DNA of 64,000 nucleotides from Lacunisphaera limnophila (lineage in GTDB: Bacteria; Verrucomicrobiota; Verrucomicrobiia; Opitutales; Opitutaceae). A program made the position numbers and the translations under genes. The notes under the pieces are model-generated. The model made no database searches and was not told the origin of the DNA. It was given only the letters and a program-made list of their open reading frames with translations. The stretch covers positions 1,674,001-1,738,000 of the forward strand of contig NZ_CP016094.1 of NCBI RefSeq assembly GCF_001746835.1, in the 5' to 3' direction. Positions within the stretch are counted from its first letter, which is position 1. The number at the start of each line of letters is the position of its first letter. This document shows, piece by piece, positions 1-15,030 of this stretch.

Positions 1-264
1 TGCACCTGAAGTAAAAGCGGACAGTAAGCCCGCGGTGATAAACCTGCGTGATGATTTCATGTGGGGTTAGGGGTAAGGCTCTTCACCCACTGACGGACTA
101 TCAGGTGAAGTGATGAGCTGAAGTAGCGAGCATCCCTTGCCTCGCAACCTCTCCGAAACTAATATCGATTAGCTTGTCCTCGCCCGCGCCGTGCACGGGG
201 CCCTTGTCTTGCGTCAGCGCGCATTACTGTTGCCCCAGGCCCCCACTGGGACATTCCACCTGCG
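1..264. other. no gene recognised at left edge
   Basis: I see no convincing coding frame, tRNA or terminator in this stretch. It precedes the ThuA-like gene and may hold its promoter or the end of something outside the window. Confidence 0.4.
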
Positions 265-918
265 ATGGCCATGTACCCTTCCCGCGTCTTGGTATTTTGC
301 GACGATCGGTATCACCCTGCTTCATTGGTGCGTGCAGGACTCGCTTTTCTGAATGATATCTACCGATTTGATTGGGTCGAGGATCCTAGAAATCGGGATC
401 CGGCCAGCTTAGCCAACTACGGTGTGGTCGTGCTCGCGAAATCAAATCACTGCACGAGCGCTGACCACGCTCCGTGGACTGGTCGCGGCATTGAGGAGCA
501 GTTGGATCGATATATCCAGGCAGGAGGTGGACTTGTCGCCCTCCACTCGGGCACTGCCGGATACCAAGGTGTCTCGTCCATCAGGAGTTTCCTGGGCGGA
601 GTTTTCACCGGACATCCTCCCCCGTGCGAAGTGCAATTCCAGCCCGAGGGTAGTCATGAAATCCTGAATGGAATCCACGAGGATTTCTCCATCGATGACG
701 AACACTATCAGATGGAGATGGACGATCCGGACGTTTCGGTCTTCCTGCGTTCGAAATCAGCATGCGGCACTCAACCCGCCGGCTGGACCCGTTCGCACGG
801 TCAAGGTCGCGTATGTGTTTTGACCCCGGGTCACACTGCAGCGGTTTGGCATCACCACGCCTACCGGCAACTGCTGCATAACTCCATTCGCTGGGCAGCA
901 AATGATGCGCATGACTGA
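265..918 (+). CDS. ThuA-like domain protein
   Basis: Probable ThuA-like (trehalose utilisation) domain protein of 217 aa, a class I glutamine-amidotransferase-like fold. Visible family signatures are the early strand ending FCDDRYH, a GGGLVALHSG turn around residues 87-96, DEHYQMEMDDPDV around 145-157, and a C-terminal GHTAAVWHH segment near 190-198 followed by a tryptophan-containing tail. There is no signal peptide. In Verrucomicrobia such proteins usually occur with sugar dehydrogenases, but no such neighbour is visible here; the gene stands alone at the left edge next to mobile DNA. Two in-frame ATGs (265 and 271) are possible and no clear Shine-Dalgarno decides between them. The precise substrate is unknown. 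Confidence 0.8.
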   Translation: MAMYPSRVLVFCDDRYHPASLVRAGLAFLNDIYRFDWVEDPRNRDPASLANYGVVVLAKSNHCTSADHAPWTGRGIEEQLDRYIQAGGGLVALHSGTAGYQGVSSIRSFLGGVFTGHPPPCEVQFQPEGSHEILNGIHEDFSIDDEHYQMEMDDPDVSVFLRSKSACGTQPAGWTRSHGQGRVCVLTPGHTAAVWHHHAYRQLLHNSIRWAANDAHD

Positions 919-1168
919 TCGCATATTCGATAATGGCGCCACTTCATAGCTCCGGGCAACGAGCACATACTTTGACGTTACGGCGCTACTCCAAGAGCGC
1001 GCACCCAGAAGAGCGCAAGAGAAGTTAAACGTTTGATCGGTCGCATCGAACGCAGCCGCGCGTAGATTACCTGCTCATGTCCGTTTCGCAAAAGCCCTGA
1101 ATCCTTATTTCGGAGGCCACCCCTCGACGCCCATTACCAGTGATGAGAAGGAGCTGTTTTGCAGCTGG
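919..1168. other. intergenic, partly open reading frame
   Basis: No recognised gene. The frame of the next gene stays open upstream from about position 1036 and its translation looks protein-like, but it offers no ATG, GTG or TTG before 1169. The 5' end of that gene may therefore be truncated or start at an unusual codon. Confidence 0.4.
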
Positions 1169-1684
1169 GTGCGTAATAATCCCGGGATCACGTCAGGCGA
1201 GATTTCTCACCCTGTTCCTGAGCGGCGGACCGAAATTATGCTCTTCATGCTCGCCAAAGGGGAAGTCTTTACCCCTTGGAGCGAAGCGAACGTCGATAAA
1301 CCGGAGGCTATACGGCTTTTTCCGTCCGCTCAGGACGAGGAAGCATTTCGACAATACCTTGACCGCAGCCGAAAGCGGCCAACGGATTTGTCTGAACTCG
1401 GTATTCGCTTAAAACCGGGTGTGTTGGTTGAATTCGACGGCGTCGATTATACGGTTACACGCCTATCTCCTAGCATGGTTAGCCTTCGGGCTGAGGACCA
1501 GGAGGAACGCACGCTTTCCTATCAAGCGTTACTCGATCTTAAGCCCTGTGTTGGGCGCAATTTCGGCGCCGAGAAGACATTTGAAGCCCTATACCGCGAA
1601 GCCCCGTTTAAGCATCGTGAGACCTATTTACGACCAATTGAGGCAGGAAAACGAATGATCTTCGTATTTCGAGAAGGATTGTGA
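1169..1684 (+). CDS. hypothetical protein, possibly 5'-truncated
   Basis: Unrecognised protein of 171 aa from a GTG start. The middle (about residues 83-125) alternates beta-like segments (VLVEFDGVDYTVTRL, then VSLRAEDQEERTLSY), suggesting a small beta-barrel or nucleic-acid-binding fold; this is inference only. The frame is open for about 130 nt upstream of the GTG with plausible protein sequence, and AAGGAG lies 16 nt upstream, too far to be a good ribosome site. The gene may be a remnant of a longer one. It lies at the left margin of the less GC-rich accessory segment. Confidence 0.5.
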   Translation: MRNNPGITSGEISHPVPERRTEIMLFMLAKGEVFTPWSEANVDKPEAIRLFPSAQDEEAFRQYLDRSRKRPTDLSELGIRLKPGVLVEFDGVDYTVTRLSPSMVSLRAEDQEERTLSYQALLDLKPCVGRNFGAEKTFEALYREAPFKHRETYLRPIEAGKRMIFVFREGL

Positions 1685-1875
1685 CACGGGGGCCGGACGG
1701 GACCTCGCCATTCACAACGGCCAAGGTAACGGATCTCATTTGCGACGTAGCTAGAAGTTTCTAACGCGCGACCGAAGAGATTGTTTACGTCATCATAAGC
1801 AATTTCGCACAGCCGCCAGTCGCTTTGGCTTGTAATGCGAACCCAATAGAATCCAGGAGTACGAGGAATCTTCAT
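1624..1875 (-). CDS. small phage-type hypothetical protein
   Basis: 83-aa protein on the minus strand whose N-terminal half (PGFYWVRI, then ...W..CEIAYDD..) and the later WRGPV.PP ending resemble small proteins often seen in phages and integrated elements, which begin PGxYWVR and end with a similar WxGPI-type motif. No biochemical function is known for that group. It overlaps the 3' end of the plus-strand gene at 1169-1684 by about 60 nt tail-to-tail. No Shine-Dalgarno is obvious. Recognition rests on the motif pattern only. Confidence 0.45.
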   Translation of the reverse strand: MKIPRTPGFYWVRITSQSDWRLCEIAYDDVNNLFGRALETSSYVANEIRYLGRCEWRGPVRPPCHNPSRNTKIIRFPASIGRK

Positions 1876-1902
1876 AATAGTTGGTATAACGGAGCGCAGC
1901 TA

Positions 1903-2148
1903 GTGCACACCACCCTGCTGCCGGATGCCCTCAAGGGCAAGATTCGCAAAAGCTACGAGGAGGCGGTTACGCAGCTTTCTGCGCCAGCAGACTCGTCCCA
2001 GGCCGTTAAAGTGGCCGCGTTCGTTCTTTATCCCGACTACAACGTCGATCCCATCGATGTGGAACTGAGCAGCCTATTCTTGGACTTCTGCACAGAAATC
2101 GAACTGCCTGACTACCCAATACGACTGCGGATATTGGAGAATTCTTAA
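1903..2148 (+). CDS. small hypothetical protein
   Basis: 81-aa acidic protein of unknown function. The GTG start at 1903 is chosen because GGAG at 1891-1894 sits 8 nt upstream, and because a longer ATG-initiated version would overlap the minus-strand gene ending at 1875. The protein has an alpha-helical-looking N-terminus and an acidic C-terminal half (VDPIDVELSSLFLDFC). No domain recognised. Confidence 0.45.
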   Translation: MHTTLLPDALKGKIRKSYEEAVTQLSAPADSSQAVKVAAFVLYPDYNVDPIDVELSSLFLDFCTEIELPDYPIRLRILENS

Positions 2149-2470
2149 TCGACGACCCTGGCTTGACGACCCTGAGGTCCGGGATCTGTGGACACTTTGT
2201 AGTAACTCCTCAAATAACATATATCGCCCAAAAATGTGACACTCAACCTACTGGGCTGCAGGGCTTAAAATGGAAGGATGACCGAGACGCGAACACGCGA
2301 CCTTCTACGTGACAGGCAAGACATCGAGACCAAGCGAGAGAGCATTTGGCTTGAAGCTACCGGTGCAGACGAATGCCGTAAAAATTGGCCATGGACGACA
2401 TACCGTAAAGATTGGCCAAACCCGGGCATGCTTTGTGTCGCGCTACAAGCCCCCTTTAATTTGCGGAGAA
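2149..2470. other. intergenic region with decayed tRNA
   Basis: No protein gene supported. It contains two copies of GACGACCCTG (2151-2160 and 2165-2174), the tRNA-Asp-like remnant described separately, and an imperfect repeat around CCGTAAARATTGGCCA near 2370-2415. Reading frames here are short and overlap tRNA-like sequence. Confidence 0.5.
2271..2340 (-). pseudogene. decayed tRNA-Asp(GUC)-like remnant
   Basis: On the minus strand the sequence reads CTTGCCTGTCAC (anticodon-stem 5' side plus a loop with GUC), then AAGGTCGCGTGTTCG and a CCA-like end at 2271. These match the 3' half of bacterial tRNA-Asp, but the anticodon stem no longer pairs (GTAGA instead of GCAAG) and the T stem and acceptor are degraded. 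No intact D arm or acceptor partner is seen. It is best read as a tRNA fossil, perhaps left by an earlier tRNA-targeting integration. Confidence 0.45.
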
Positions 2471-2796
2471 TGGTGGGCCCACCGGGATTCGAACCCGAAA
2501 CCAAGGGATTATGCTTACCACTTCGGCTTTCGCCGCCGGCTTGGTGCCGTGCGTGGTCTGGACCATGCCTTCACCATGTCGCGCCATCGCGACGAAGGTG
2601 GGTGATTATGGTCTCTACACCTTACCAGGCTGCCCTGGGCTTGGCTCGGCGTTGGGTCGCGGGGCTGAAAAGCATCTCATTGAAATGCTCGCCAACCCCA
2701 CAGGCCGTTCACCGAATTTACACCTGACTAGTTCGCCGTTTCCCGCGAACCGACCCATTTTTGAGTCCCCTGCTCTAACCGTTGAGCTATAGGCCC
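2471..2796 (-). tRNA. tRNA-Ile2(CAU) split by a group I intron
   Basis: The minus strand carries a complete cloverleaf in two exons: 2796-2764 and 2513-2471. Acceptor GGGCCTA pairs with TGGGCCC, the D arm is GCTC...GAGC, the anticodon stem GGGGA pairs with TCCCT around loop CTCATAA, and the T arm has loop TTCGAAT; the CCA end is encoded. Anticodon CAT could be Met or Ile2. C4-G69 and C5-G68, which are TilS lysidine-synthase determinants in E. coli Ile2, plus the TGGTT variable region favour Ile2. An elongator Met identity is not excluded. The exons are separated by a 250-nt intron after U33. Confidence 0.85.
2514..2763 (-). ncRNA. group I intron in tRNA anticodon loop
   Basis: 250-nt intervening sequence between U33 and C34 of the tRNA. 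The preceding exon ends in U and the intron ends in G, the group I rule. P1 can form between exon GACU and internal guide GGUC (2755-2752). P2 is GTTCGC/GCGAAC; P4 is TCGG/CCGA within P and Q segments, Q containing GCCGAGCCAAGCC; R contains GGTGTAGAGACC; S contains AAGGCATGGTCC; P7 is a perfect GACCAT (2613-2608) with ATGGTC (2566-2561); P8 is TCACC/GGTGA. This is the small IC3-type arrangement known from cyanobacterial tRNA-Leu and Azoarcus tRNA-Ile introns. There is no room for a homing endonuclease. Confidence 0.88.
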
Positions 2797-2868
2797 GAAT
2801 AAAAAGAACAACTGATGGCTAACGTCCTGAGCAAGGCCGGCAAGCGCAACCTCCGAAGCCGGACTCAG

Positions 2869-2883
2869 CATCTCACTGAGATG
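2869..2883. repeat. palindrome over the stop codon
   Basis: CATCTCA-C-TGAGATG, a perfect 7-1-7 inverted repeat covering the stop codon of the XRE gene. The same motif with a T centre recurs at 8008-8022 over the stop codon of the relaxase frame. Confidence 0.5.
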
Positions 2884-3868
2884 AAGTCCACCGGGCTCCT
2901 TGGGCGTGCGCGATTCGTCTGAAAAATCCGGGCATCGGAGTCCCATCAACCGGCCCGACAACACTTAGTTCTGCGCGAGCCAACTGCCGCTCGATCACGG
3001 ATACAGGGACTAGGTAAGCCTGAGCCAACGATGCGACCCCCATCCTAGACCTTTTCTCACCGCTAACCGGCAGACACTGATTAAGCCCGGCAAGGGGTGC
3101 CAAAAGTTCGTCTGCGAAAGCCTCAACCGCTGCAACACGGGAGCGGCCCTCGAATTGCCTAGGCGTCCTCAAATAGCCGGCTTCAGCCGCGAGAAAATAG
3201 TGGTGATCTGGAAGGGTAGCTTCCCCCCAGAAGACGATCACGGGCAGTTCTATTCTTGCCCCGGAATGATCGAGCAAGCTGACGACCACTTTGGTCGCCC
3301 CGCTCCCAACGACCCCCGCAGCCCGAACGCAGGGAATGCCCAACTGCTCCAGAATCTCTTCTATCCTGGCGATCGGGCTGATCCCCAAGTCTAACGTGGC
3401 GCGAAGGTCGCGGGCGTGATCAGCAGGATCTCGTTCGGCTGGAATCGGCATTCCCCGCCAGAACCGAGACAAGTATTCCGTAGGAAGGCGCAAAGCGCCG
3501 ACTTCACGTGCCGCAACGATAGCTGCACCGCGCACTAAACGTAGAGACTCGCCGTTTATCTCACGCCGACGCACCGCGACTTCCAGAATCTCCAAAGTCT
3601 GCGCCAGATGCATCAATTCCGACACTTCTGGAAAGGCATTCAGGACCCTGGCTTGCATCGCGGGCGAAGGCCCAATCCCTCTACGAGACCAGGTCAGAAC
3701 AGTCTGCTCGTGGACGCCGAGTTGCCGGGCCGCCGATCGCATTGATATACCACGGGCTTCAAGGGCTTGGAAAAATGCCCGTCGGAAACGGGGCAGCAAC
3801 TCACGCTGAATCGGTTCTGCCATACCTAGAGGTTCTTCAGTTTCGAGATGCTCACAAGCATATAGCAA
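2873..3868 (-). CDS. XRE-type HTH protein with ImmA/IrrE-like domain
   Basis: 331-aa predicted regulator. Residues about 28-65 form a Cro/C1-type helix-turn-helix (SMRSAARQLGVHEQTVLTWSRR). Residues about 155-300 follow the ImmA/IrrE layout: LGISPIARIEEILEQLGIP, a central strand region, then FADELLAPLAGLNQCLP and a C-terminal helix VPVSVIERQL. The usual HExxH zinc motif is replaced by HHYFLAAEAGYL (about 222-233), so proteolytic activity is doubtful. Known relatives derepress integrated elements or stress genes by cleaving a repressor; here both roles are fused. Translation may start at 3868 or at the methionine at 3823. A palindrome just upstream could be its own operator. Confidence 0.75.
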   Translation of the reverse strand: MLYACEHLETEEPLGMAEPIQRELLPRFRRAFFQALEARGISMRSAARQLGVHEQTVLTWSRRGIGPSPAMQARVLNAFPEVSELMHLAQTLEILEVAVRRREINGESLRLVRGAAIVAAREVGALRLPTEYLSRFWRGMPIPAERDPADHARDLRATLDLGISPIARIEEILEQLGIPCVRAAGVVGSGATKVVVSLLDHSGARIELPVIVFWGEATLPDHHYFLAAEAGYLRTPRQFEGRSRVAAVEAFADELLAPLAGLNQCLPVSGEKRSRMGVASLAQAYLVPVSVIERQLARAELSVVGPVDGTPMPGFFRRIAHAQGARWTSSQ

Positions 3869-4209
3869 GCTATCGTATTAGGTATGATATGGATGCCTAA
3901 AGTTGGGCGGTCTTGTTCAGCAATTCTTCTGCTGAGGTTCTTTGGGGTCATAGCTCAAAAAGCATCCAATCGGGTCATATAAAACCCAAATGATATATGG
4001 TTAGACTGTGCCTAGATTAGTCGAGCTAGTTAGGCAGTCGAATTAAAAGGCGGGCAAATATTTTCAATAGCACTTGGCGCAATTCTCCATAGAAATTACC
4101 TAAATCACTAAACAGTAATTTACTAGAATACATTTAGCTCTCTGGTTCGTGGTGAAAATATTTCGTTTGGGGTCTAGGAGAATACCCTTTCGTCTACAAA
4201 TAAGGGGGA
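3869..4209. promoter_or_regulatory. AT-rich divergent control region
   Basis: About 340 nt without a gene, clearly more AT-rich than either side, lying between the divergent XRE/ImmA-like gene and the plus-strand HTH/ParB/relaxase series. It should hold both promoters. No tRNA or small ORF is supported. Confidence 0.5.
3878..3900. promoter_or_regulatory. candidate operator palindrome
   Basis: TTAGGTAT, 7-nt spacer GATATGG, then ATGCCTAA: 7 of 8 positions are inverted-repeat matched. It lies 10 nt upstream of the XRE/ImmA-like start codon at 3868, where an autorepressor would bind. Confidence 0.4.
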
Positions 4210-4830
4210 GTGAAAGCTCCGAAGATCACCAACGCAAACGTACCTCAAGCCCAACATGAGCTTGGCGAGGTCCTGCGTGCACATGGGCTTTCAGCTGAAA
4301 CACCGCCTCCCGATAGCAACAATGTCTTTTTGAGCCCGAAGGAGATATCACGCGTACTCTATCGAAATCCCCAGACCATGAAGCGGTGGAGGCGCTGGGG
4401 GTGGATAACCCCGAGTCCTAAATCGAGGGCGAGAGGGCTCCAGTACGATGCCGTACAGATCGCGGCTATTGCTGCACGTACATTCCGGCATTTTCGGAAC
4501 CAAGACTTCGATCGGACAGAAGCGCAGCGTCTTGGGGTGGGGGATCTTCTGAACTGGGTCTACAATGCGGTGAAAGAGCATCAGGGGAGTATCCAAGAGT
4601 CCAGCGGTCCGGGCCTGCACCTTCTGATCCTGGCCTCCCTGTGCGACTGCTCAGAGGTGATTCCTCCGTCCTTCAACATCACGGCAGCCCAACTCAAGGA
4701 ACTTCAGTCGGAGGCAAAGCGCCAACTCCGCGACCGACTGCGCGACGTCACCGGGCGGAAGCTCATGATCCATGCGTGGGAGCAGGCCGGCATTTCCGCG
4801 GTAACCCACGCCTCCTCCACTGCCGCGTAA
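4210..4830 (+). CDS. HTH DNA-binding protein
   Basis: 206-aa protein of unknown specific role. Residues about 39-70 (FLSPKEISRVLYRNPQTMKRWRRWGWITPSP) look like a MerR/excisionase-type winged helix-turn-helix, followed by a helical, largely uncharacterised region. The GTG at 4210 is the first possible start, directly after an in-frame stop at 4201-4203; AGGGGGAG overlaps it, giving unusually tight spacing. The gene is 7 nt upstream of the ParB-like gene and heads the series leading to the relaxase, which fits a role in element transfer, excision or copy control. Confidence 0.6.
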   Translation: MKAPKITNANVPQAQHELGEVLRAHGLSAETPPPDSNNVFLSPKEISRVLYRNPQTMKRWRRWGWITPSPKSRARGLQYDAVQIAAIAARTFRHFRNQDFDRTEAQRLGVGDLLNWVYNAVKEHQGSIQESSGPGLHLLILASLCDCSEVIPPSFNITAAQLKELQSEAKRQLRDRLRDVTGRKLMIHAWEQAGISAVTHASSTAA

Positions 4831-4837
4831 ATAGCTT

Positions 4838-5956
4838 ATGAACAAAGAGAATAACGAAATCCAATGCCGGGCCCCGCTGCCCGTTTCACAATACCTCACC
4901 CTTCAGGATGCGAGTCAGTATACAGGCGTGCCCTTCGACACCTTGGTCTGGGCCCACTCAACAGGAAAGCTGGCGGTGACGCGCATCTACACAGGCGGCA
5001 CTCACGTACTGTGGGTCCACTCCGGCGCCATTTGCTACTACATGATCAACGATGCGCCTGAGAAATATCGCTGGGCGCTCAAGCCCGTCGAGATCACCAG
5101 CCTCAGACCGCATACCGCCACCCAAGTCCGCCCCATTGATCCAACTGAAGTGGAGGATTTGGCAGATGAATTCCGGTTGGGAGGGACGACGTCCCCAATC
5201 TGGACGCTCACTGAAGACGGGATGGAATACATAGTCGATGGCTATCACCGCACGGCCGGCCGGCTCTCAGCGACCCAAACCGAGATCGATGCGATCCGCG
5301 TGCGCCTGCCCATCCGATACGCCCGGGCTATAGCGATCTACGCCAATGAGCGCCACGGTAGCCGTATCAAGGACTCCGATTTGCAGGCCCTCGTGATCCA
5401 GCATCTCGACCTCAATCCCCAAGCCCGAACTGACCTCGCGGCTGGCAAACTCTCGATGGGTGAACTTGCCGAGGTGGTATGCGTATCAATTTCCACCGTA
5501 TCCCGCGCCTTGGACGACCATAATGATCGCCTAGCAATCGATCCGCAGGCCGTATTCGCAGACCTACGGGCCTTGAACAAGCATTTGACCCACCGGACTG
5601 CGGCCGCGGACGCCAAACTCCTCGCCTTTATTTTCGCAACCGCGTTGGGGCGGATCAAGGAGGACCTAACCAGGGTGGAAAAGGCCGACATCAAGCAGCG
5701 CCTCCGCCTGAATTCTACTCCGATTTGCTCCGGCATCACCCCCCTCATACGCAGCCTTATCTTCCGCCATGGTGGTGCCCGTAAACGGGGGAAAGCTATG
5801 ACGATCGGCACCGGGCATGTGGCCCCACCCGAACCGGTCCTGGAAATATCACAAGCTAAGCGCACAGGGAAAGCCGCTAAGAAGAAGTCGACCGCCACAA
5901 CCAAGGATTCACCGCGATACCATGAACAAATGACATTCGAGAGCCGGCTCATGTGA
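4838..5956 (+). CDS. ParB-like protein with extra HTH
   Basis: 372 aa. The N-terminus (about residues 19-60, YLTLQDASQYTGVPFDTLVWAHSTG) resembles an excisionase/MerR DNA-binding module. Residues about 98-165 match a ParB/Srx-like nuclease domain: VRPIDPTEVEDLADEF, SPIWTL, and DGYHRTAGR in the place of the ParB box GxxRxxA. A second HTH follows (about 205-232, LSMGELAEVVCVSISTVSRAL), as in ParB/KorB. The tail is lysine-rich. No ParA ATPase is encoded nearby, so a regulatory or plasmid-style partition-like role in the element is inferred rather than classical segregation. It is co-oriented with neighbours at 7 nt and 25 nt spacing. Confidence 0.7.
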   Translation: MNKENNEIQCRAPLPVSQYLTLQDASQYTGVPFDTLVWAHSTGKLAVTRIYTGGTHVLWVHSGAICYYMINDAPEKYRWALKPVEITSLRPHTATQVRPIDPTEVEDLADEFRLGGTTSPIWTLTEDGMEYIVDGYHRTAGRLSATQTEIDAIRVRLPIRYARAIAIYANERHGSRIKDSDLQALVIQHLDLNPQARTDLAAGKLSMGELAEVVCVSISTVSRALDDHNDRLAIDPQAVFADLRALNKHLTHRTAAADAKLLAFIFATALGRIKEDLTRVEKADIKQRLRLNSTPICSGITPLIRSLIFRHGGARKRGKAMTIGTGHVAPPEPVLEISQAKRTGKAAKKKSTATTKDSPRYHEQMTFESRLM

Positions 5957-5981
5957 ACGTGCACTACTACACTTCCACGCA

Positions 5982-6437
5982 ATGGACCCCATGAAGAGCC
6001 GCGAAACACCCTCTTTACCGCCGACTGCACATGCCGCCGGTAAAGAGGTTCGGTCAATAGTAGCAAACGTCCGGACAAGTCGCCGAAAACCTCCTAAGGA
6101 CGCCTCGATCGAAATACGGGTCGAGGCGACCTTGAAGGTCGAGGCCAGCGGCAAGGCGAAAGCAGAAAAGACAACAGTGACCAAGATCCTTACCCGAGCG
6201 CTCCGAGACTATGTGGCAGGTTCTCTTTGGGTGAGGCGACAACGCTATGGCCATGGTGCTAGACAGATGCAGGCGGCCGAACTGCGTCACGGACAGGTCA
6301 TCATCACCAACATACTTTCCGACATTCTAAACATCGCCCAGCAAGAGGTGGACAGCCCTTTAAAATCGGCGGCATGCCATGCACTGTTGAAAGAGTGCGT
6401 AGTCCAGAACCGCAGACAGCTGGAGAGGCTATTCTGA
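5982..6437 (+). CDS. putative ribbon-helix-helix relaxosome protein
   Basis: 151-aa basic protein. Residues about 41-78 (SIEIRVEATLKVE, then EKTTVTKILTRALRDYV) have the strand-helix-helix look of MobC/TraY-like DNA-binding proteins; the rest is helical. It lies directly upstream (3 nt) of the relaxase gene, where accessory nicking proteins are usually encoded. A methionine at 5991 is an alternative start. The family assignment is inferred from context and pattern. Confidence 0.5.
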   Translation: MDPMKSRETPSLPPTAHAAGKEVRSIVANVRTSRRKPPKDASIEIRVEATLKVEASGKAKAEKTTVTKILTRALRDYVAGSLWVRRQRYGHGARQMQAAELRHGQVIITNILSDILNIAQQEVDSPLKSAACHALLKECVVQNRRQLERLF

Positions 6438-6440
6438 GCT

Positions 6441-8018
6441 ATGCATCCTGTTTTTTACAAAATCTGGGCGCGTTCTGGCCCCACCTCGATCAAGGAGGCC
6501 CAAAACTATGTTTACGGGAACAAGGCTTCCACGGGGGAACTTCGTTTGGCGGACCCAGAGCACCTGGCTGGCGTTGACCGTAGAACGATGAACCTCCTAG
6601 GACATGATTGCGCAATTAAAGGCCGGTACCTGACCACTGTCGGAAGCCTCAATTTCGAAGAGAATCCTAGTCGTCAGGTTCTCGTGGAGGTATTCAATCA
6701 CTTCGTCGACTTCAGCTATGCAGGAATCGACCGTCAGAAGCGGTGCGTGGTCGGTGTAAAGCACCTGAAATTGTTAAAATACACCGGCCTAGAATCAGCG
6801 GACGTCCACTTTATTAACCTGCCAGTTCTGCTGGGGTGCGGTCGGGTGTTTCGGCCCTATTACTGGCGGGGATCCCGGTTTGGTTACGACTTGTGGGCGG
6901 AAAAGATGAACTACACCTACGGGTTCAGTTCACCCTTTGACCCTGTGCGGCGCCGGGTCACCGCTCCTCGCGCCTATGCCTCTGACACGCCTGAGATGGT
7001 TGAATTTAAGCGCGGAATCGGCGAGTTGGTTAACGCCGCTTGGGGAAGGGGAGCACTTGATTGCGGGCGGGACGTCATCGACTTGCTGCTGGCCCAACCT
7101 GGGGTAAGGCAGGCCTCGCACAGTAAATACGGCCTCACCGTGGTGGTCGCCGACATCAAGCGGCCCGTGAGCCTGACTGCGATGCTGTTCGCGGAGAGTT
7201 TCAACGCCGACTCTGTCAGGGAGAAGGTCGCTCGTTTAAAGCGGCGCACCAAAGAGGAGGTGGAGAAGGAATTCAAACGCATCGTTCAGTTGAGAGCGGA
7301 TGAGCATTTTCGAAGGTTCGGCCAACCCACCGTCCGCTGGACCCGAAATGAAATCGATAACCTGTTAATCAAAAAGGACTCCAACCATGTCATTCCCCTA
7401 TACACCAACGAAGGACGAGCTTGGGCAACCGCTGTCGCCGTTGATCGATTCGCTGCAACAGAATTTCACCGGCTTGGAGCAACGTGTGACGGCCTTGAGC
7501 GGCGCGTTGGACAAATTAATACAGAACTTGGAGAAAGCTTCGAAGTCGCGGAGCCGATTGTCACAGGAGGTGGCGGCGGTGAGGGACCAATTGAGCGTCT
7601 TCGCCGTGCAATTGGAGGGCTGGGACAGAGTCTTCGTCGAGCTGTCGAAGCGGTCCGCGGCGGAGAACGCCCGGCTACTATCTCTCGAAACCCGAATGAA
7701 ACTCCTGGAATCATCGCTTCCATCCATCAAGCAGCTCAACACATTGCTAGGCGTCGGGCTATGAATCCCCGGTCGGCAGCGGAAGTGGAAAATGCTTTGT
7801 TAAGTTTTCACCGCGGCGAACCGATCTCAGAGAGGGAATGTTGGTGGCTTACCTTTGAACCGCTTGGGGTGAAGGCCAGTGTCCTGAAGGGTTTGGATGT
7901 GATTGATCCAATGGGTTGCTACGACTTGCGGAAGACTTGCCATGTCATGACGCTACTAACTCCCGGACAAGGTCCCCGCGAACCTGGATTTGATGTTCAG
8001 CGGCATCCATCTCATTGA
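6441..8018 (+). CDS. MobA-type relaxase/mobilization nuclease
   Basis: Long frame of 525 aa. Residues about 60-175 show the MobA/relaxase pattern: YLTTVGSLNFEENP, VEVFNHFVDFSYAGID, VGVKH, ADVHFINLPVLLGCGRVFRPYY and ...YGFSSPFDPVRRR, the last corresponding to the common ADPxDPxRRR stretch after the HUH histidines. It would nick oriT and pilot single-stranded element DNA into a recipient through a helper conjugation system. The conserved part ends near residue 315. From 7387 to 7764 a different frame encodes a better coiled-coil protein, and the last 85 residues may be an independent coupled gene starting at 7761. The gene's true 3' limit is uncertain. Confidence 0.7.
   Translation: MHPVFYKIWARSGPTSIKEAQNYVYGNKASTGELRLADPEHLAGVDRRTMNLLGHDCAIKGRYLTTVGSLNFEENPSRQVLVEVFNHFVDFSYAGIDRQKRCVVGVKHLKLLKYTGLESADVHFINLPVLLGCGRVFRPYYWRGSRFGYDLWAEKMNYTYGFSSPFDPVRRRVTAPRAYASDTPEMVEFKRGIGELVNAAWGRGALDCGRDVIDLLLAQPGVRQASHSKYGLTVVVADIKRPVSLTAMLFAESFNADSVREKVARLKRRTKEEVEKEFKRIVQLRADEHFRRFGQPTVRWTRNEIDNLLIKKDSNHVIPLYTNEGRAWATAVAVDRFAATEFHRLGATCDGLERRVGQINTELGESFEVAEPIVTGGGGGEGPIERLRRAIGGLGQSLRRAVEAVRGGERPATISRNPNETPGIIASIHQAAQHIARRRAMNPRSAAEVENALLSFHRGEPISERECWWLTFEPLGVKASVLKGLDVIDPMGCYDLRKTCHVMTLLTPGQGPREPGFDVQRHPSH
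7387..7764 (+). CDS. coiled-coil protein nested in relaxase frame
   Basis: 125-aa protein read in a different frame inside the relaxase reading frame. From residue about 18 to 115 it is an almost uninterrupted heptad-rich coiled coil (LIDSLQQNFTGLEQRVTAL, LSQEVAAVRDQLSVFAVQLE, LLSLETRMKLLESSL). AAGGA at 7374-7378 lies 8 nt before the ATG. Its stop overlaps a downstream ATG (ATGA at 7761-7764). Small coiled-coil mobilization proteins next to or inside relaxase genes are known in mobilizable plasmids (for example mobB within mobA of RSF1010), so a relaxosome or secretion-coupling role is a reasonable guess. Confidence 0.6.
   Translation: MSFPYTPTKDELGQPLSPLIDSLQQNFTGLEQRVTALSGALDKLIQNLEKASKSRSRLSQEVAAVRDQLSVFAVQLEGWDRVFVELSKRSAAENARLLSLETRMKLLESSLPSIKQLNTLLGVGL
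7761..8018 (+). CDS. possible coupled 85-aa protein
   Basis: ATG at 7761 overlaps the stop codon of the nested coiled-coil gene (ATGA), the usual sign of translational coupling. It is in the same frame as, and currently continuous with, the relaxase frame, so it may be either the relaxase C-terminus or a separate 85-aa protein. The sequence (NPRSAAEVENALLSFHRGEP, ECWWLTFEPLGVK) shows no known domain. Confidence 0.35.
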   Translation: MNPRSAAEVENALLSFHRGEPISERECWWLTFEPLGVKASVLKGLDVIDPMGCYDLRKTCHVMTLLTPGQGPREPGFDVQRHPSH

Positions 8019-8022
8019 GATG
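8008..8022. repeat. palindrome over the stop codon
   Basis: CATCTCA-T-TGAGATG, a perfect 7-1-7 inverted repeat spanning the stop codon of the relaxase frame; near-identical to 2869-2883. Confidence 0.5.
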
Positions 8023-8050
8023 ACTGCGGAGTTGCGGCTTGGTATTTCTA

Positions 8051-8320
8051 TCAAGCCTCAACCTCAAACTTGGCGATGACGTTCTTCCGGTTAGTCAGGG
8101 CCACCACTTCATAACCCCACTCAGTATCCCTGATGATGGCCCACGACGTCGGATGGCGATAACCGCACATGTGACATCGGAGGCCTGGAACGTGGCCGAC
8201 GTCGTGGCATTTTGGGCATGAGGCGCCGGGGAGATGCGAGTTATATTTCTCAACGTAGGCCCCTGCCCGCAAACGGGCTGAGCCAAACATTTTCTCAAGG
8301 CTCTCTAGCGATTCGTCCAT
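8051..8320 (-). CDS. small zinc-ribbon protein
   Basis: 89-aa protein starting at the methionine at 8320 (MDESLESLEKMF), chosen because longer versions run into the upstream nuclease gene. The centre has CPKC (about residue 34) and CHMCGYRH (about 46-53), a CxxC...CxxC zinc ribbon. It lies 67 nt downstream of, and probably co-transcribed with, the PD-(D/E)XK nuclease gene. Zinc ribbons of this kind commonly mediate nucleic-acid or protein contacts; the exact role is unknown. Confidence 0.6.
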   Translation of the reverse strand: MDESLESLEKMFGSARLRAGAYVEKYNSHLPGASCPKCHDVGHVPGLRCHMCGYRHPTSWAIIRDTEWGYEVVALTNRKNVIAKFEVEA

Positions 8321-8387
8321 ACTCTCGGAGTCCGTTAAAGGGTGAGGTGCTTTCCCCGGGCACAGATGTGCCCGGAGGAAGTGTCGA

Positions 8388-8963
8388 TTAGGCCGCAAGA
8401 ATCTCCCGAGCGACAGCCTGAAGGCGGTGGGAGCCTTTGTGGAAAAAGCCCCGGACTCCCTCGCCAAACGACACGTAGATCAACGCAATCCAGACACGGC
8501 GATCGTGGAATTCGGGTTCATCGGCCACCAAGGTTGCGTAGCCAGATGCCTGAAGTAGATCTCTAGCGGCAGGCTCTTCGGGTAGCGTCGAAACCACTTT
8601 GAACTCTGCACAACCACGGTTCGCAAGGCCCCCCGACAGGAGGAGGTCGACCCGACCACTCGGAAGGCCCACACCATCCAAGCTCACTTCCGCTGTCATT
8701 TGCCGTACGCCCCTCTCCCAAAGCATACGTCTTGAGGCTTTGAGCCACGGAAGCATCATTTTCTGGCTGGTGCTTAGCAGCGCGCCAGGCGTTTTGGATG
8801 CCAACGCATGAAACTGGCAGCCGAGCTGGTATGTTGAACCATTCAGATGCTGAAGCCGTGGGAGCCTGATTGTACGAACGAAGTCATGCGCGATGGGTGT
8901 AGTCGCTAGGTGCGTCTCGAACTCGCGGGTAATGCTAGGGGTGATGTATTTGGTCATGGTCAT
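8388..8963 (-). CDS. PD-(D/E)XK nuclease-like protein
   Basis: 191-aa protein with a RecB/Cas4-like PD-(D/E)XK nuclease signature: GRVDLLL (D106), CAEFKVV (E120, K122) and LLQASGYA (Q138, Y142), the last being the QxxxY helix of the RecB-type subset. It is short and has no helicase domain or Cas4-type cysteines. It is divergently oriented from a small HTH gene, with a perfect palindrome between them, and is followed by a zinc-ribbon gene. Possible roles are phage-like DNA processing or defence. A second methionine at 8957 is an alternative start. Confidence 0.65.
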   Translation of the reverse strand: MTMTKYITPSITREFETHLATTPIAHDFVRTIRLPRLQHLNGSTYQLGCQFHALASKTPGALLSTSQKMMLPWLKASRRMLWERGVRQMTAEVSLDGVGLPSGRVDLLLSGGLANRGCAEFKVVSTLPEEPAARDLLQASGYATLVADEPEFHDRRVWIALIYVSFGEGVRGFFHKGSHRLQAVAREILAA

Positions 8964-9009
8964 GGTATCGTGTCTTAGGAATTCGCAGCAAAAGTCCGGG
9001 TTGCCAACT

Positions 9010-9030
9010 TGTCAATTATCAAGATTGACA
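9010..9030. promoter_or_regulatory. operator palindrome between divergent genes
   Basis: TGTCAAT, 7-nt spacer, ATTGACA: a perfect 7-bp inverted repeat with two-turn spacing, located between the nuclease start (8963) and the HTH gene. It is a good candidate binding site for the adjacent HTH protein, controlling both genes. Confidence 0.55.
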
Positions 9031-9059
9031 CGTTGTCATCCTTTAGATTGATCCACTAC

Positions 9060-9326
9060 GTGGATAAATTTCGTGATGTACTCGAAGAAGTTATAGCGGC
9101 CGAATTTGGCGCCAGCCATAAGGCTCTGTCCTCAGCAGCAGGCATCAGCACCTCGCTTGTCAGTCGATTGGTGAGCGCAGAACGCAAAGGCAATCCCGTG
9201 GTTATCGGCAAGATTGCCGCAGCGTGTTCACCAGCAAAGCGTCGTGCCCTGATTCAGGCATATCTCCGTGGTATAGCCACCCAGATCAGTGCCGACATCG
9301 ACGTGAAGGTCGTCGTGTCCAACTAG
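9060..9326 (+). CDS. small HTH repressor-like protein
   Basis: About 88 aa. Residues 11-45 (IAAEFGASHKALSSAAGIS, then TSLVSRLVSAER) form a Cro/C1-like helix-turn-helix. The GTG at 9060 is preferred because earlier in-frame TTG codons (9009, 9033) sit on or just beyond the operator palindrome; the Shine-Dalgarno is weak in every case. The likely role is repression of itself and the divergent nuclease/zinc-ribbon pair. Confidence 0.6.
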   Translation: MDKFRDVLEEVIAAEFGASHKALSSAAGISTSLVSRLVSAERKGNPVVIGKIAAACSPAKRRALIQAYLRGIATQISADIDVKVVVSN

Positions 9327-9432
9327 CAGTAGAGGGAAACCGTTTTGCCTGTACACGAAAAACTACTCCCTACGCATAGCCGTCGCATACTGCGCAAACC
9401 CAACCATCGATAAAAAGGAGAGGGAGCCTCAC

Positions 9433-9459
9433 ATGCGGACCAAGGAGCCGAGGACATGA
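9433..9459 (+). CDS. 8-codon leader micro-ORF
   Basis: ATG-CGG...ACA-TGA encodes the peptide MRTKEPRT. GGGAG at 9422-9426 lies 6 nt upstream, with AAGGAG at 9415-9420 further upstream, and its stop overlaps the phosphoesterase start (ATGA at 9456-9459). It could couple or tune translation of the next gene. The peptide itself need have no function. Confidence 0.4.
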   Translation: MRTKEPRT

Positions 9460-10139
9460 AAATCCTCCACGTCGCTGACCTTCACCTCGACCATGATTGG
9501 TTTCGTTGGGTCGGCTCCAACAGTTCTGACTATGACCTACTCGTCATTGCGGGTGACCTCCAGAATGCCTTTTCGCGTACTCCTCAGAACGAACAGGCCC
9601 TGGGTATCACCCAATGGCTACTCGGGCTATCAACACCGACGGTAGTATGTTCGGGGAATCATGACTATTTTCTGACTGGCTTCCGCAGGAAGGACGAGCA
9701 AGCGGAGGGCAGATGGCTAACAGACTTGCAGGGTAAGGGCTCTGTCATCGGAGTGGATGGACAGACGGTGTACTTCAACGGGGCAACGATTCATGTAAAC
9801 GGTTGGCTGCAAGTACCCCCCGAGTCGCTAGACCACGTTAGCATAATAGTCACACATGCTCCACCGATGGGATGCCCATGCGCTTTCGGCGCCGAGGGCC
9901 GGGACGTGGGCGACTGCGATCTATGGCAATCGCTGGAATACCCGCCTCGCCTGATGCTTTGCGGCCACGTACACCTGCCCAGCAAGAGAGCCTGCACCTG
10001 GCCACCACTCGATCCATCAACAACTATTCTGGTTCCAGGATGCGACGAGCTGTCGGAAGTGCCCTTGCACTGGAAAATCGATACGGGCCGCGGTACTGCC
10101 CTTCACAGTAGCGGCGAATTGGTCAGGCTATTGGACTGA
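9456..10139 (+). CDS. calcineurin-like metallophosphoesterase
   Basis: 227-aa cytosolic phosphoesterase with the complete calcineurin-like metal site: DLH (D8, H10), GD (D34), GNHD (N68-D70), H134 in VTHAPP, and GHVH (H171, H173). Family members cleave phosphodiesters in nucleotides, nucleic acids or second messengers. It has no signal peptide and no extra nuclease domains of SbcD/Mre11 type. AAGGAG within the leader ORF is 9 nt before the ATG. It precedes three unknown genes by about 125 nt on the same strand and may work with them. Substrate unknown. Confidence 0.85.
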   Translation: MKILHVADLHLDHDWFRWVGSNSSDYDLLVIAGDLQNAFSRTPQNEQALGITQWLLGLSTPTVVCSGNHDYFLTGFRRKDEQAEGRWLTDLQGKGSVIGVDGQTVYFNGATIHVNGWLQVPPESLDHVSIIVTHAPPMGCPCAFGAEGRDVGDCDLWQSLEYPPRLMLCGHVHLPSKRACTWPPLDPSTTILVPGCDELSEVPLHWKIDTGRGTALHSSGELVRLLD

Positions 10140-10264
10140 ATTTTAGGCACTGCCTGATAGGGCAAGGCTGCAAACACGAGGCGGCCAAACCTTCGGTCCG
10201 TCCACCCCGTGGCTTTGAGCGCGGGTGCGCTGGGTCTTCATACCTTTTGAGGTTCCGGCGTATT

Positions 10265-10816
10265 ATGGAAAATCAACACACGCAGATCTCACCATCTGCA
10301 ATCGTTTCGCCGAATCGCGGCGGAGCAGTAATATTCCAGGGTCATGCTTTAACGCAGGCCCTGGTCCTCACGCGGTCTGAAATAGACCGCTTTTTAGTTA
10401 TGCCGGCAGCGGCTACCCCGCTGGTTATCCCCTCGTTCGCCTCAGCCGGACTCGCATGCTATACCGCAACTGGAAAGGTCGAGTTTATCGAGGTAACTCC
10501 CAACCCGGATCATCCGCTAGAATTCAGCTTAGACATAAAGCTCAAGCAGAGCGACCACATCGCGTACTATTCGCGAGTGTTAAGTTCAGAAGGGCCTGTA
10601 GCCTTAGCCAGACGTGGCGTGACGGTTCTGATTACTCCACGGACGGTCGCCCTCGTACACAGGGATGGGCAACCGAGCCTCTCAGTCGTCGCAAGCCTTC
10701 CTAGAGCGCAGGAACCCGACCTAGCCAACATCTACGCGGTAGATCCGAATCTACTCCGTGCAGCTTTGGAAGAAGCAATAACCCAAACTCGACAAGGGAT
10801 TCACCATGACAACTGA
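10265..10816 (+). CDS. unknown protein, first of a coupled trio
   Basis: 183-aa protein, start at ATG 10265 preferred over 10247. It is mainly beta-strand in appearance (AVIFQGHALTQALVLTR, VEFIEVTPN, VTVLITPRTVALVHRDGQ, SLSVVASL) with a C-terminal helix. No signal peptide, membrane segment or known motif. It overlaps the next gene by 11 nt, implying translational coupling. Confidence 0.6.
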   Translation: MENQHTQISPSAIVSPNRGGAVIFQGHALTQALVLTRSEIDRFLVMPAAATPLVIPSFASAGLACYTATGKVEFIEVTPNPDHPLEFSLDIKLKQSDHIAYYSRVLSSEGPVALARRGVTVLITPRTVALVHRDGQPSLSVVASLPRAQEPDLANIYAVDPNLLRAALEEAITQTRQGIHHDN

Positions 10817-11360
10817 AGAACCCTTACGTTTTCCACCCGGCGTGAGCTGGGACAGTCTGAAAAAGGAAGATCTAACGCCTCCACCGCATGTAACCTTCGG
10901 AACTGAGGCCTACAATCGGATACTCAGACACTATGGTATCAGTCATACCGCCGGACTAGCTGAGCGATTAATCCGAGCCAATAGGGCCGATTTTGCTGCC
11001 GCGGCCGCATCCATCCCACCAGCTGCCTGGAGGTTTCTCTACTACCGGGGCTTCTACGTACTCGAATCACTTAGTGCGTACGGTTTCTCAGCTGAGAGCG
11101 CACTACGTGAAATGTGCTCGTTGAGCGATCCGTTGCATGTCCCACCACCGGAATGGCTGGGCCATGAGATTTCGATCGAGTCCCTAGCTTCAGATCTAGA
11201 AATCTCGTTGCGCCACCTTGGGGAAGGCCCTTCCAGTGCAGTCTGGACCGTTCTGTCGCTCGCAAAGCGGGTCGTGCTCACCCAGGCCGAAGTTGAGGCC
11301 TGTCCTTGGTGGGAACCTGAATGGGCCCTCAACCTGGCCTATCGAATCGGCGTGACATGA
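10806..11360 (+). CDS. unknown helical protein, second of trio
   Basis: 184 aa, acidic, predominantly alpha-helical and aromatic-rich (WRFLYYRGFYVLESLSAYGF; WWEPEWALNLAYRIGV). It overlaps the upstream gene by 11 nt, and its stop codon overlaps the ATG of the downstream gene. No recognised domain. Tight coupling suggests the three products form a complex or pathway. Confidence 0.6.
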   Translation: MTTEEPLRFPPGVSWDSLKKEDLTPPPHVTFGTEAYNRILRHYGISHTAGLAERLIRANRADFAAAAASIPPAAWRFLYYRGFYVLESLSAYGFSAESALREMCSLSDPLHVPPPEWLGHEISIESLASDLEISLRHLGEGPSSAVWTVLSLAKRVVLTQAEVEACPWWEPEWALNLAYRIGVT

Positions 11361-11791
11361 ATACGTCGTCCAGAACGTTTCGTTCTGCCTGTCGCCTTGC
11401 CGCAGAGTTAGAGGAAACGCCTACCTCTGTTCATGCCATCCTGAGGACCGCCCGATTTCTGTCTCAGTTTCAACCGCCTGTGACAGCTGATGAAGCCCAG
11501 ATCATTTGCTACGTTGTCTGGGATGAAGGTACTCCCATGCCCGATTCGGTTGAAGAAACCCCAGAACTTCTGGCAAGCCGCATCGGGAAAGTCCTCAGGG
11601 CTCAAAAGACCCAACCTACGTCTAAGGATATGGAGAATCGTGTTCGTGAACTCCGTCGGTTCTCAAAGAAGCTGAGGAGCCTTGAGGACATCGAGGCCTA
11701 CGCTCTCTACGTCGGGGGGTGGATATGCGCCCATGCTTCGGACGGAGCCCATCTAAAGCACTTCTTCGTGCTCACAGACAGCAAGGGATGA
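11357..11791 (+). CDS. unknown helical protein, third of trio
   Basis: 144 aa. The start at 11357 is chosen because ATGA overlaps the stop of the previous gene. Helical throughout, with a basic patch (RVRELRRFSKKLRSLEDIEAYALYVGGW). No recognised family. A TTCG-loop hairpin directly after the stop codon probably ends the transcript. Confidence 0.6.
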   Translation: MNTSSRTFRSACRLAAELEETPTSVHAILRTARFLSQFQPPVTADEAQIICYVVWDEGTPMPDSVEETPELLASRIGKVLRAQKTQPTSKDMENRVRELRRFSKKLRSLEDIEAYALYVGGWICAHASDGAHLKHFFVLTDSKG

Positions 11792-11798
11792 ATTCGCG

Positions 11799-11814
11799 TG
11801 GAGCTTCGGCTCCA
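11799..11814 (+). terminator. TTCG-loop hairpin after unknown operon
   Basis: TGGAGC-TTCG-GCTCCA, a perfect 6-bp stem with a stable tetraloop 7 nt after the stop codon of the third unknown gene. The following T tract is weak, so termination may be Rho-assisted. Confidence 0.5.
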
Positions 11815-11897
11815 TTGTCATCGGGGTGTTTGATCAGTGTGGGCTTGTCCTGAGCGCTGGTTAAACGCCCCTTCCCCCTTCCCGGGGAACTTTTGGT

Positions 11898-13226
11898 TTA
11901 GTTCAAACCCCGACCTTTCGCGACAGGTTTGGTTTGAAGACGTGCGTCATCACGCAGTGCTCTTGTCTGCTGGAACATTTCCTTTTCCCAGTAAGTGATC
12001 ATGGCCTCAGGAACGCCGGATTCCCCCGCCGCCCGTCGCCAGCCACCTAGGGTCGCGGATTCAACTTGGTCATAGATTTCCCGAGCATTTCTAGCCGGGA
12101 TTCCGCCGATTTTCGCCAGTTGCATCAGGGTTTCGTATTTAGTGGGGATAACCATGCTGCCGAGCCACGACAAACCTGCCAGTGTGTTGTAAACACTCGG
12201 GGTGACATCAAAAGCTGGCGCGAGTGACCATGACCGCGAAGTTTCATCATAACGGAACAGGTGATTGCGCCCGTGATCATCTCGATTTGTTGCTAGCAGA
12301 TTAAACACGGCCCGCCGGAAGCACTCAATCGCGTCGGGTGCACCACCAAGGCGCCGAGAGAGACGCATGAAATCCTCGTAGTCTATGGCTCCATCGGCGG
12401 CCTTACGGTGCATCATACCGCTCAGAGAGTGTACATGCCGACGGCCTATTGTATCATCAGGTCGGCGGTAACGATCAAACCGCTCGACGGCGAAATGGTG
12501 GCGCTCACCATCGTGGACGAGGCAAGCCCTTGGCAGGCGGATGCCGGCATTTCGAGCCATCAGCCAAAATGCAAACTCAACCGCGCCCTCTGCTTCGTCG
12601 GTTGCCTGGGCGAACTTCAGTACGCAAGGAGAGTAACCGGGAGGCGGCAACCCTCCGATCAAGATCTCGTGTCGCTCGATCTGTTCGCCGTCGAGACGGA
12701 GGTGGACGGATGACTTCGGTTGCGCGCCCCCAAGAGAACTACCGCCCTTGGCTAAGGCCTCATTGACGTGCTCCTCTGTGAGTGGGACGGGAGAGGCGCG
12801 CAGCTTGTCGGCGGCCTTGGCGAGTTCGGCCAAGACAGCAGGGGCAGTTTCTGCGTCAGTGCCGGCTCCCAGCACGGGTTCAAAGGTCAGAGCCCCCGGT
12901 CCACGCTGGCCGATCACGGCCAACTTTCCGATGGGTGTCCGGATTGCCGGCATTTCCAGTTGCAGCATACGGTTGCCCCAGGCGTCGGGGAGGGAATCAG
13001 CGATCAATCCAGGCAGGCCGCCAACAAACGGCGTATCGCCCAAGCGGAATAGCTTGGATCCCCCCGAGAAGGTCTCCACGGGCATGCTCAATGGCGAAAG
13101 GTCGTGTCCACTGGCTAAGAACGCCCTGTCGAGTTCGAGCAAATAAACCGCGTCATCCGGCCGGTGGGCCAGCATACCCATGGGTCCCCCCAAGAATTTA
13201 ATGTGAAGGGAAACAGGCTCAGACAT
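11898..13226 (-). CDS. hipA: HipA-family serine/threonine kinase toxin
   Basis: 442 aa, the usual HipA length. N-terminal HipA domain about 1-120, then the kinase core: nucleotide loop GGSSLGGAQPK (161-171), catalytic NRDDHGRNH (314-322), and PAFDVTPS (337-344) in the metal-binding position. HipA proteins phosphorylate targets such as glutamyl-tRNA synthetase and cause growth arrest unless bound by HipB. It is downstream of the XRE-type partner gene (9 nt gap). All key motifs look intact. Confidence 0.92.
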   Translation of the reverse strand: MSEPVSLHIKFLGGPMGMLAHRPDDAVYLLELDRAFLASGHDLSPLSMPVETFSGGSKLFRLGDTPFVGGLPGLIADSLPDAWGNRMLQLEMPAIRTPIGKLAVIGQRGPGALTFEPVLGAGTDAETAPAVLAELAKAADKLRASPVPLTEEHVNEALAKGGSSLGGAQPKSSVHLRLDGEQIERHEILIGGLPPPGYSPCVLKFAQATDEAEGAVEFAFWLMARNAGIRLPRACLVHDGERHHFAVERFDRYRRPDDTIGRRHVHSLSGMMHRKAADGAIDYEDFMRLSRRLGGAPDAIECFRRAVFNLLATNRDDHGRNHLFRYDETSRSWSLAPAFDVTPSVYNTLAGLSWLGSMVIPTKYETLMQLAKIGGIPARNAREIYDQVESATLGGWRRAAGESGVPEAMITYWEKEMFQQTRALRDDARLQTKPVAKGRGLN

Positions 13227-13235
13227 GGGAATTAC

Positions 13236-13640: not shown

Positions 13641-13642
13641 CA

Positions 13643-14986: not shown

Positions 14987-15030
14987 GGGGGGATAGCAAA
15001 ACCCCGCAAGTAACACGCCTTCAACGGCTC

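Follow-up and report, generated by a model that had tools for sequence, protein, structure and literature searches.

The group IC3 intron of the Azoarcus pre-tRNA-Ile(CAU) (tRNA, transfer RNA) is inserted between nucleotides (nt) 36 and 37 (written 36|37 below). Group I introns have also been reported in tRNA-Ile2 genes of Acidovorax and Burkholderia, in a passage on tRNAscan-SE 2.0 (PMC8450103), and in genes for transfer-messenger RNA (tmRNA), where, according to passages of PMC11915505, they occupy several neighboring subsites of one loop in a gene often used by islands for integration. In tRNA-dependent lysogeny, as described in passages of Guerrero-Bustamante and Hatfull (2024; PMC10865867), integration destroys a host tRNA gene and a phage tRNA of the same isotype rescues the cell; the cases given there include tRNA-Ile2-CAT, with a core of 10 bp in OneUp and 9 bp in Mollymur, and in that paper the word intron occurs only in the title of a reference. 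For archaea, a passage of PMC3293823 (citing Randau and Soll, 2008) puts forward the idea that a tRNA intron in an attachment site blocks integration and that an element may profit from bringing such an intron with it. Here we describe a tRNA-Ile2(CAU) gene of Lacunisphaera limnophila that is interrupted by a group I intron and lies within an integrated element of about 65 kb, the right-hand part of which is contained in the 64,000-nt stretch analyzed (contig NZ_CP016094.1, positions 1,674,001 to 1,738,000; referred to as the window).

Results

An intron-bearing tRNA-Ile2 gene within an element that splits a second tRNA-Ile2 gene

The whole interrupted tRNA-Ile2(CAU) gene occupies positions 2471-2796 of the window on the minus strand and consists of three parts:

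2764..2796, minus strand: 5' exon of tRNA-Ile2(CAU), nt 1-33, last base U33 (exon match and folding)
2514..2763, minus strand: 250-nt intron of group IC3, inserted after U33 and before C34 (33|34), terminal G at 2514 (alignment, match of covariance model R2)
2471..2513, minus strand: 3' exon of tRNA-Ile2, C34 through the encoded CCA (exon match and folding)

When joined, the exons form a 76-nt cloverleaf with the anticodon CAU and 21 of 21 stem pairs. These coordinates agree exactly with the first-pass annotation of the window, which had placed the two halves of such a tRNA 250 nt apart on the minus strand, and its claim of an insertion after U33, with U at the exon end and G at the intron end, is borne out by the U33-G pair and the terminal G. 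Two further CAU tRNAs are on the tRNA list of the genome, in our reading elongator and initiator tRNA-Met, and this tRNA differs from both. Neither ARAGORN nor Rfam reported a tRNA at 2471-2796, an outcome expected because the gene is interrupted.

A second tRNA-Ile2 gene is present in the same genome in two same-strand parts about 65 kb apart, nt 1-41 at genome positions 1623836-1623876, outside the window, and nt 31-76 at 1689094-1689139, within it. The corresponding features of the window are:

15094..15139, plus strand: 3' part (nt 31-76) of the host tRNA-Ile2 and attachment junction, with the 11-bp core ACTCATAATCC at 15094-15104 (genome search with the tRNA, core scan)
1..15093, no strand: right-hand part of the element of about 65 kb (genome 1623877-1689093; core only at both junctions, step in guanine-plus-cytosine (GC) content, left interior without close genus matches)
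13643..15016, minus strand: tyrosine recombinase, 77 nt inside the right junction (PF00589, 3.1e-10; PHROG 1 integrase, 4.7e-24; Pfam and PHROGs)
11898..13646, minus strand: HipA-like kinase and small helix-turn-helix protein, cargo adjoining the recombinase (profile scan)

Both parts contain the core, which at up to one mismatch occurs nowhere else in the 118 kb scanned, and rejoining them gives 21 of 21 stem pairs. The break point falls in the anticodon loop, and the gene is rebuilt at neither junction. We read the split gene as being, in all likelihood, the host's own tRNA-Ile2, because the 46-64 nt upstream of its 5' part resemble the sequence upstream of the intact Ile2 gene in four genus mates (G011, G014, G017 and G018; G and L numbers denote genomes and loci compared) and because left flank, Ile2 and right flank follow one another in the same order in G011. 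No other complete tRNA-Ile2 was found in the searchable part of the genome, the intron-bearing copy being the only complete one, a finding that is limited to the searchable sequence because the small-subunit ribosomal RNA, tRNA-Ile(GAU) and tRNA-Ala(UGC) were not found there either. The host tRNA broken by the element was probably essential.

The two parts could also have been separated by an ordinary chromosome rearrangement rather than by integration, and local gene order is indeed not fixed in the genus, since in G016 the right flank adjoins Ile2 in the opposite orientation, on the other side of the tRNA. This explanation is nevertheless very unlikely, given that the halves lie on the same strand with a duplicated core, that a recombinase is situated at the junction, that the GC content changes in a step and that the left interior is foreign. 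Whereas the flanks outside have a GC content of 66.5-67.8%, that of the left cargo is 61-64% and that of the right 15 kb (window 1-2470 and 2797-15093) 54-56%, and the outermost 8.3 kb of the element on its left side have genus matches of only up to 70% identity over at most 1.1 kb, compared to 72-81% over up to 2.3 kb for the left flank outside the element. Moreover, junctions of the same kind were found in three more genomes (see below). Overall, the sequence evidence strongly supports that the element integrated into the host tRNA-Ile2 gene and would replace it with its own copy. The first-pass annotation had described the intron as lying beside a mobile element; the mobile element is there, but the whole tRNA gene lies inside it and not next to it. 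A short element reaching only from the intron-bearing copy to 15094 was considered and rejected, since these two are in opposite orientation, whereas the true halves share orientation and core.

The element proteins scanned are mostly concerned with carbohydrate use (glycoside hydrolases GH42, GH3 and GH2, a sulfatase and a TonB receptor), and no phage structural genes were recognized among the 10 element proteins compared to PHROGs and the 33 compared to Pfam, which represent part of the element's proteins. Many intron-bearing tRNA-Ile2 genes in the family, that of the window included (2797-2815), are preceded at a short distance by the sequence GTTCTTT, which may be a promoter or processing signal common to them. 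On the 3' side of the tRNA, repeats of a GGCCAATYTTTACG-like motif, perhaps an insertion-sequence end, occur in the window's own genome (G000; window 2370-2430) and in G023 (L038:1370-1410).

Structure and class of the intron

The paired segments located in the intron and at its 5' border include:

2752..2767, minus strand: P1, in which exon GACU and intron CA pair with the guide UGGGUC, the U33-G wobble marking the 5' splice site (sequence and alignment)
2608..2613, minus strand: P7 5' strand, inside the R motif (five pairs in 26 of 26 rows, one in 25 of 26)
2561..2566, minus strand: P7 3' strand, inside the S motif (alignment of 26 rows)

The anatomy is that of a small IC3 group I intron, with the U33-G wobble in P1, a P2 with GAAA loop, P3-P9 and a terminal G. 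Helices were checked in an alignment of 26 introns sharing the 33|34 insertion site, in all of which the exon-end U is paired with the guide G (as T-G); the final base of the window's intron is G. Compensatory changes support P2, P5, P6, P7, P8 and P9b, with the best support for P2, P5, P7 and P9b; pair 4 of P7, for instance, is C-G in 10 rows and T-A in 16. P3 is weaker (its four pairs are formed in 18, 18, 24 and 25 rows) and P10 is poor (middle pair in six rows only). The four exon pairs of P1 are formed in 24, 19, 19 and 26 rows, and the exceptions are, as we read the alignment, mostly initiator-tRNA rows in which the guide is shifted by one base. The fold energy of 2510-2761 corresponds to z = -3.84. 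An open reading frame on the plus strand, 2278-2727, extends across part of this structure and is regarded by us as a chance occurrence.

The first-pass annotation had named the lack of a group I covariance match as grounds for refuting its reading, and Rfam indeed gave no group I match, either at the gathering threshold or at E <= 10. This negative result says little, because at gathering Rfam passed over two other introns as well, one of Azoarcus type (L061) and one from a cyanobacterial tRNA-Leu (L077), with 0 matches in 6 sources. Since the Rfam scans did not report this class of introns, two covariance models of our own were made. The window copy is one of the 43 rows from which R1 was built, so that its R1 score is no independent evidence, whereas R2 was built from 23 introns of other sites (tRNA-CAU 36|37, tRNA-Leu 34|35 and tRNA-Arg) and contains zero 33|34 introns. 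R2 matched 2730-2560 on the minus strand with an E of 9.6e-15, its sole match in the 64-kb window up to E 1. With the P3-P8 and P4-P6 domains, their conserved core motifs and covariation present in both the alignment and the R2 match, the segment 2514-2763 is confirmed, as far as comparative sequence analysis goes, as a group I intron, as the first-pass annotation had proposed, and belongs to subgroup IC3.

It might be argued that the intron-bearing copy is a dead gene and that AUA is read in another way, because the 18 genes scanned seldom use AUA (in 14 of their 434 Ile codons) and splicing is a prediction from structure. We consider this the least probable of all explanations, hardly credible in view of the conserved core motifs, the helices kept by compensatory change, the intact tRNA exons and the lack of a tRNA-Ile(UAU) among the 42 tRNAs listed for the genome. 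The AUA codons are distributed as 7 of 49 Ile codons in three element genes (window 9456-15016), 7 of 246 in ten other element genes and 0 of 139 in five genes of the chromosomal flanks; as a side remark, the element genes would thus lean on the tRNA carried by the element.

Distribution and lineage of introns at 33|34

A motif pattern search retrieved at least 119 stretches in bacterial genomes and 65 in viral contigs, and at least 174 distinct matches, including the window and two relatives, were subjected to a splice-and-fold test. Among the 174 matches listed, the test returned 50 CAU tRNAs with an intron after nt 36, 46 tRNA-Leu(UAA) with an intron after nt 34, 26 CAU tRNAs with an intron after nt 33, and 20 with other labels, four of which were read as tRNA-Arg(CCU) with an intron after nt 36, the other 16 being unused; no tRNA was obtained from the remaining 32, several of which lie at piece ends. 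The 26 introns after nt 33 comprise 18 in tRNA-Ile2 (13 bacterial, including the window, and five from viral contigs) and eight in initiator-like tRNAs (seven bacterial, two of them titled Parcubacteria or Taylorbacteria, and one viral). Insertion between U33 and C34 therefore also occurs in other Opitutaceae and in phage tRNA-Ile2 genes. All 13 bacterial Ile2 loci either have titles with Verrucomicrobiota or belong to the family of the window. The Verrucomicrobiota origin that had been suggested for the window is supported by loci with the titles Opitutaceae and Opitutus, which were assigned to genomes of this family by contig number and coordinates.

In a tree of whole introns (128 rows), the 18 Ile2 introns at 33|34 form one group (support 99), separate from that of the 36|37 introns. 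A second tree, made from the central part only and so blind to the splice sites, agrees, with 99/92 for 13 Ile2 rows and L171; it contains 112 rows, since 16 of the 128 were left out (14 without the anchor motif; G027 and G036 absent from the input). Both trees are to be read with caution, given their long branches, few columns and the position of L171 inside the Ile2 clade. L171 is a phage tRNA-Leu(UAA) intron (34|35, viral contig) that nests within the Ile2 33|34 group in both trees, which suggests a shift of the site by one position between tRNAs in phages. The possibility that the window's intron is an Azoarcus-type intron moved by three bases was rejected, because the 33|34 and 36|37 lineages are separate in both trees; the insertion point does differ from that of Azoarcus, as had been noted at first.

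A survey with R1 found the intron in 41 of 252 genomes and 19 of 49 genera of the window's family, and in the window's own genus in one of 21 genomes, that of the window. Together with the phage introns in the same clade, this distribution supports the horizontal spread suggested by the first-pass annotation. Matching of Ile2 pieces placed the insertion site at 33|34 in 30 of the 41 genomes, in four of which (G259, G244, G177 and G175) only the 3' piece from nt 34 was seen, and at 36|37 in 11. Genomes G057-G067 were matched to those of the survey by identical contig numbers and coordinates. An intact or near-intact Ile2 is present as well in five of the 41 (G023, G027, G110, G250 and G196), 5' or 3' parts of Ile2 in nine (G000, G068, G102, G170, G218, G197, G125, G034 and G259) and short 3' fragments in two (G274 and G175). 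Inspection of 40 doubtful tRNA matches identified 35 as other tRNAs or intact Ile2, L383 as a partial tRNA-Met, L385 as an Ile2 truncated at the end of its contig, and the remaining three as short 3' fragments.

These three fragments resemble the 3' portion of Ile2 (nt 43/45-76) and lack a surrounding tRNA; they lie at G274:C286:4158-4189, G175:C269:17362-17395 and G058:C195:377-410, as if the T-arm were used by other elements. The tRNA-intron query also matched 1263 plasmid records, among the rows seen mostly through a stretch of about 62 nt that is about 82% identical to the P7-P9 part; the match in pCTX-M3 (L379:1501-1561) is unannotated.

Similar elements in other genomes

The same design was found in three more genomes, G068 (complete), G102 and G170 (both drafts). 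In G068, the 5' part (nt 1-47) is at 3319485 and the 3' part (nt 32-76) at 3424005, with the copy bearing a 33|34 intron between them at 3356855; all three share one strand, defining an element of 104.5 kb with a core of 16 bp and a recombinase frame that reaches the 3' part. G102 has a 36|37 intron, with the 5' part and the intron copy on one contig and the 3' part on another, and G170 a 33|34 intron, with pieces across three contigs and both Ile2 parts seen. A PF00589-like frame lies within about 0.1 kb of the 3' part in each of the three, with a score under the Pfam cut-off in G068 and G170, and these recombinases are 28-29% identical to that of the window. No intact Ile2 was found in the three genomes, the other tRNA-like matches inspected being tRNA-Met, Lys, Arg and Phe. 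In all four elements the whole core is present in the element's joined exons and is split by the intron, at 33|34 in three and at 36|37 in one; the run identical to the host gene is 23 nt in G000, 44 in G068, 33 in G102 and 41 in G170. A further genome, G218, combines on one contig a 5' part (nt 1-38), five 3' fragments and a copy with the intron.

Related recombinases (32%) lie beside an Ile2 3' part in G019 and G058, which also have an intact Ile2, and these elements are, judging from this arrangement, of the ordinary tRNA-rebuilding kind. In G102 (L363:3856-3885) and G068 (L373:6710-6731), the 5' part or the intron copy is closely preceded by an orphan stretch that repeats the first 22 nt or so of tRNA-Ile2 and continues with TTCCGAG. 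At L057:242-2186, an Ile2 with an intron and an Ile2 3' part are 1.9 kb apart, and a broken recombinase frame lies in the interval; this may be an element that became immobile when an intron invaded its junction.

Discussion

The explanation that we favor, and regard as slightly more probable than not when taken as a whole, is that an integrative element carries the intron-bearing tRNA-Ile2 as its replacement gene and that the intron hides the attachment core. According to this model, a tyrosine recombinase, to which we assign this role from its place next to the junction, would insert the element through a short core into the anticodon loop of the host tRNA-Ile2(CAU) gene; the resulting junctions are seen in the sequence. 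Since tRNA-Ile2 is rebuilt at neither of them, the cell would come to depend on the element's tRNA-Ile2, as the lack of another complete Ile2 gene suggests, and the group IC3 intron, whose structure is evident, would have to self-splice after U33 to yield a functional tRNA. As the intron sits inside the core, the spare gene would present no intact attachment site, and the recombinase would be unable to cut its own rescue gene, while removal of the intron from the RNA would restore the anticodon loop that is hidden in the DNA. For this masking step on its own, we see about equal chances of being right and wrong. The broader proposal, that self-splicing introns act as DNA-level camouflage of an anticodon-loop core in element-borne replacement tRNAs and that this evolved at least twice (33|34 and 36|37), is put forward tentatively, with its chances a little below even.

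The chief rival accepts the same element and the replacement of the tRNA, and holds that the intron is a passive passenger, derived from an Opitutaceae Ile2 gene and with no role in integration. This is a serious possibility, if in our judgment a rather less than even one. IC3 introns are fairly common in the family (41 of 252 genomes), no recombinase-like frame was found in the six viral-contig pieces with a 33|34 intron, and four of these six pieces hold other, ordinary tRNA genes. Moreover, 25 of the 41 intron-bearing genomes have neither an intact Ile2 nor a fragment, indicating that the intron also lives outside such elements. On the other hand, the intron is present in all four well-resolved elements that do not rebuild the tRNA, which is unexpected at a background of 16%, even though the search that yielded three of them was made in genomes with an intron, and in such elements it occupies two insertion sites, both within the core.

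Besides these 25 genomes, several observations weigh against the masking model as we have formulated it. The Ile2 genes of genus mates are closer to the exons of the element copy (97%) than to the split gene (84%), and four intron-bearing genomes (G197, G125, G034 and G259) have a 3' part and no 5' part. Phages of the tRNA-dependent kind are described without an intron in the passages of PMC10865867, so masking would not be obligatory in general. In favor of the model, a 5' part without a rebuilt gene is present in five of the 41 intron-bearing family genomes and in 0 of 52 other genomes (Fisher one-sided p 0.014; 0 of 32 with the control confined to the family, p 0.05), a contrast that is supportive only, as the control is small, drawn differently and mostly made up of drafts, some of which are without any Ile2 (e.g. 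G001, G009, G015 and G020). The doubtful control matches (G022, G025 and G030) proved to be tRNA-Met; the 20 control genomes from other families were checked for the intron by DNA search only, and one control genome, G056, shows a lone 3' part (nt 33-76) with no intron by DNA search.

If the masking model is true, camouflage would provide a selective reason for element-borne tRNA genes to have group I introns in their anticodon loops. Group I introns are commonly regarded as neutral parasites, and hiding a recombination target in an essential tRNA gene would be a function that helps to explain why many of them reside in anticodon loops. Likewise, tRNA-dependent integration, which was demonstrated in actinophages, would have a much wider occurrence, and the cell's AUA decoding would depend on the element. 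In the literature searched, which covers few subscription journals, no statement of the 33|34 site or of attachment-site masking by a bacterial group I intron was found; what appears to be new, as not found in print, is an intron in a rescue gene at core-breaking positions.

Compared to the betaproteobacterial relatives of the Azoarcus IC3 intron, the window's intron is alike in its core motifs, its tRNA and its small size, and differs in its insertion at 33|34 instead of 36|37 and in its clade in both the whole-intron and the central-part tree. As in the tRNA-Ile2 genes of the tRNAscan-SE 2.0 passage (PMC8450103), the intron makes a tRNA finder miss the gene, although that passage, unlike the present analysis, gives neither the insertion site nor the element context. 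The introns of PMC11915505 lie in the T-loop of tmRNA, and a link between intron and integration is absent from its passages. The archaeal introns discussed in the passage of PMC3293823 lie at the tRNA joined to the element, whereas here the intron is bacterial, belongs to group I and interrupts a replacement gene separate from the tRNA at the junction. With tRNA-dependent lysogeny, the locus shares a tyrosine integrase beside the attachment site, a short core (11 bp), a host tRNA rebuilt at neither end and a tRNA-Ile2(CAU) inside the element. In contrast to the cases in the passages of PMC10865867, the window's element is not an actinophage, has no phage structural genes recognized among its scanned proteins, and carries a group I intron inside the core of its spare tRNA.
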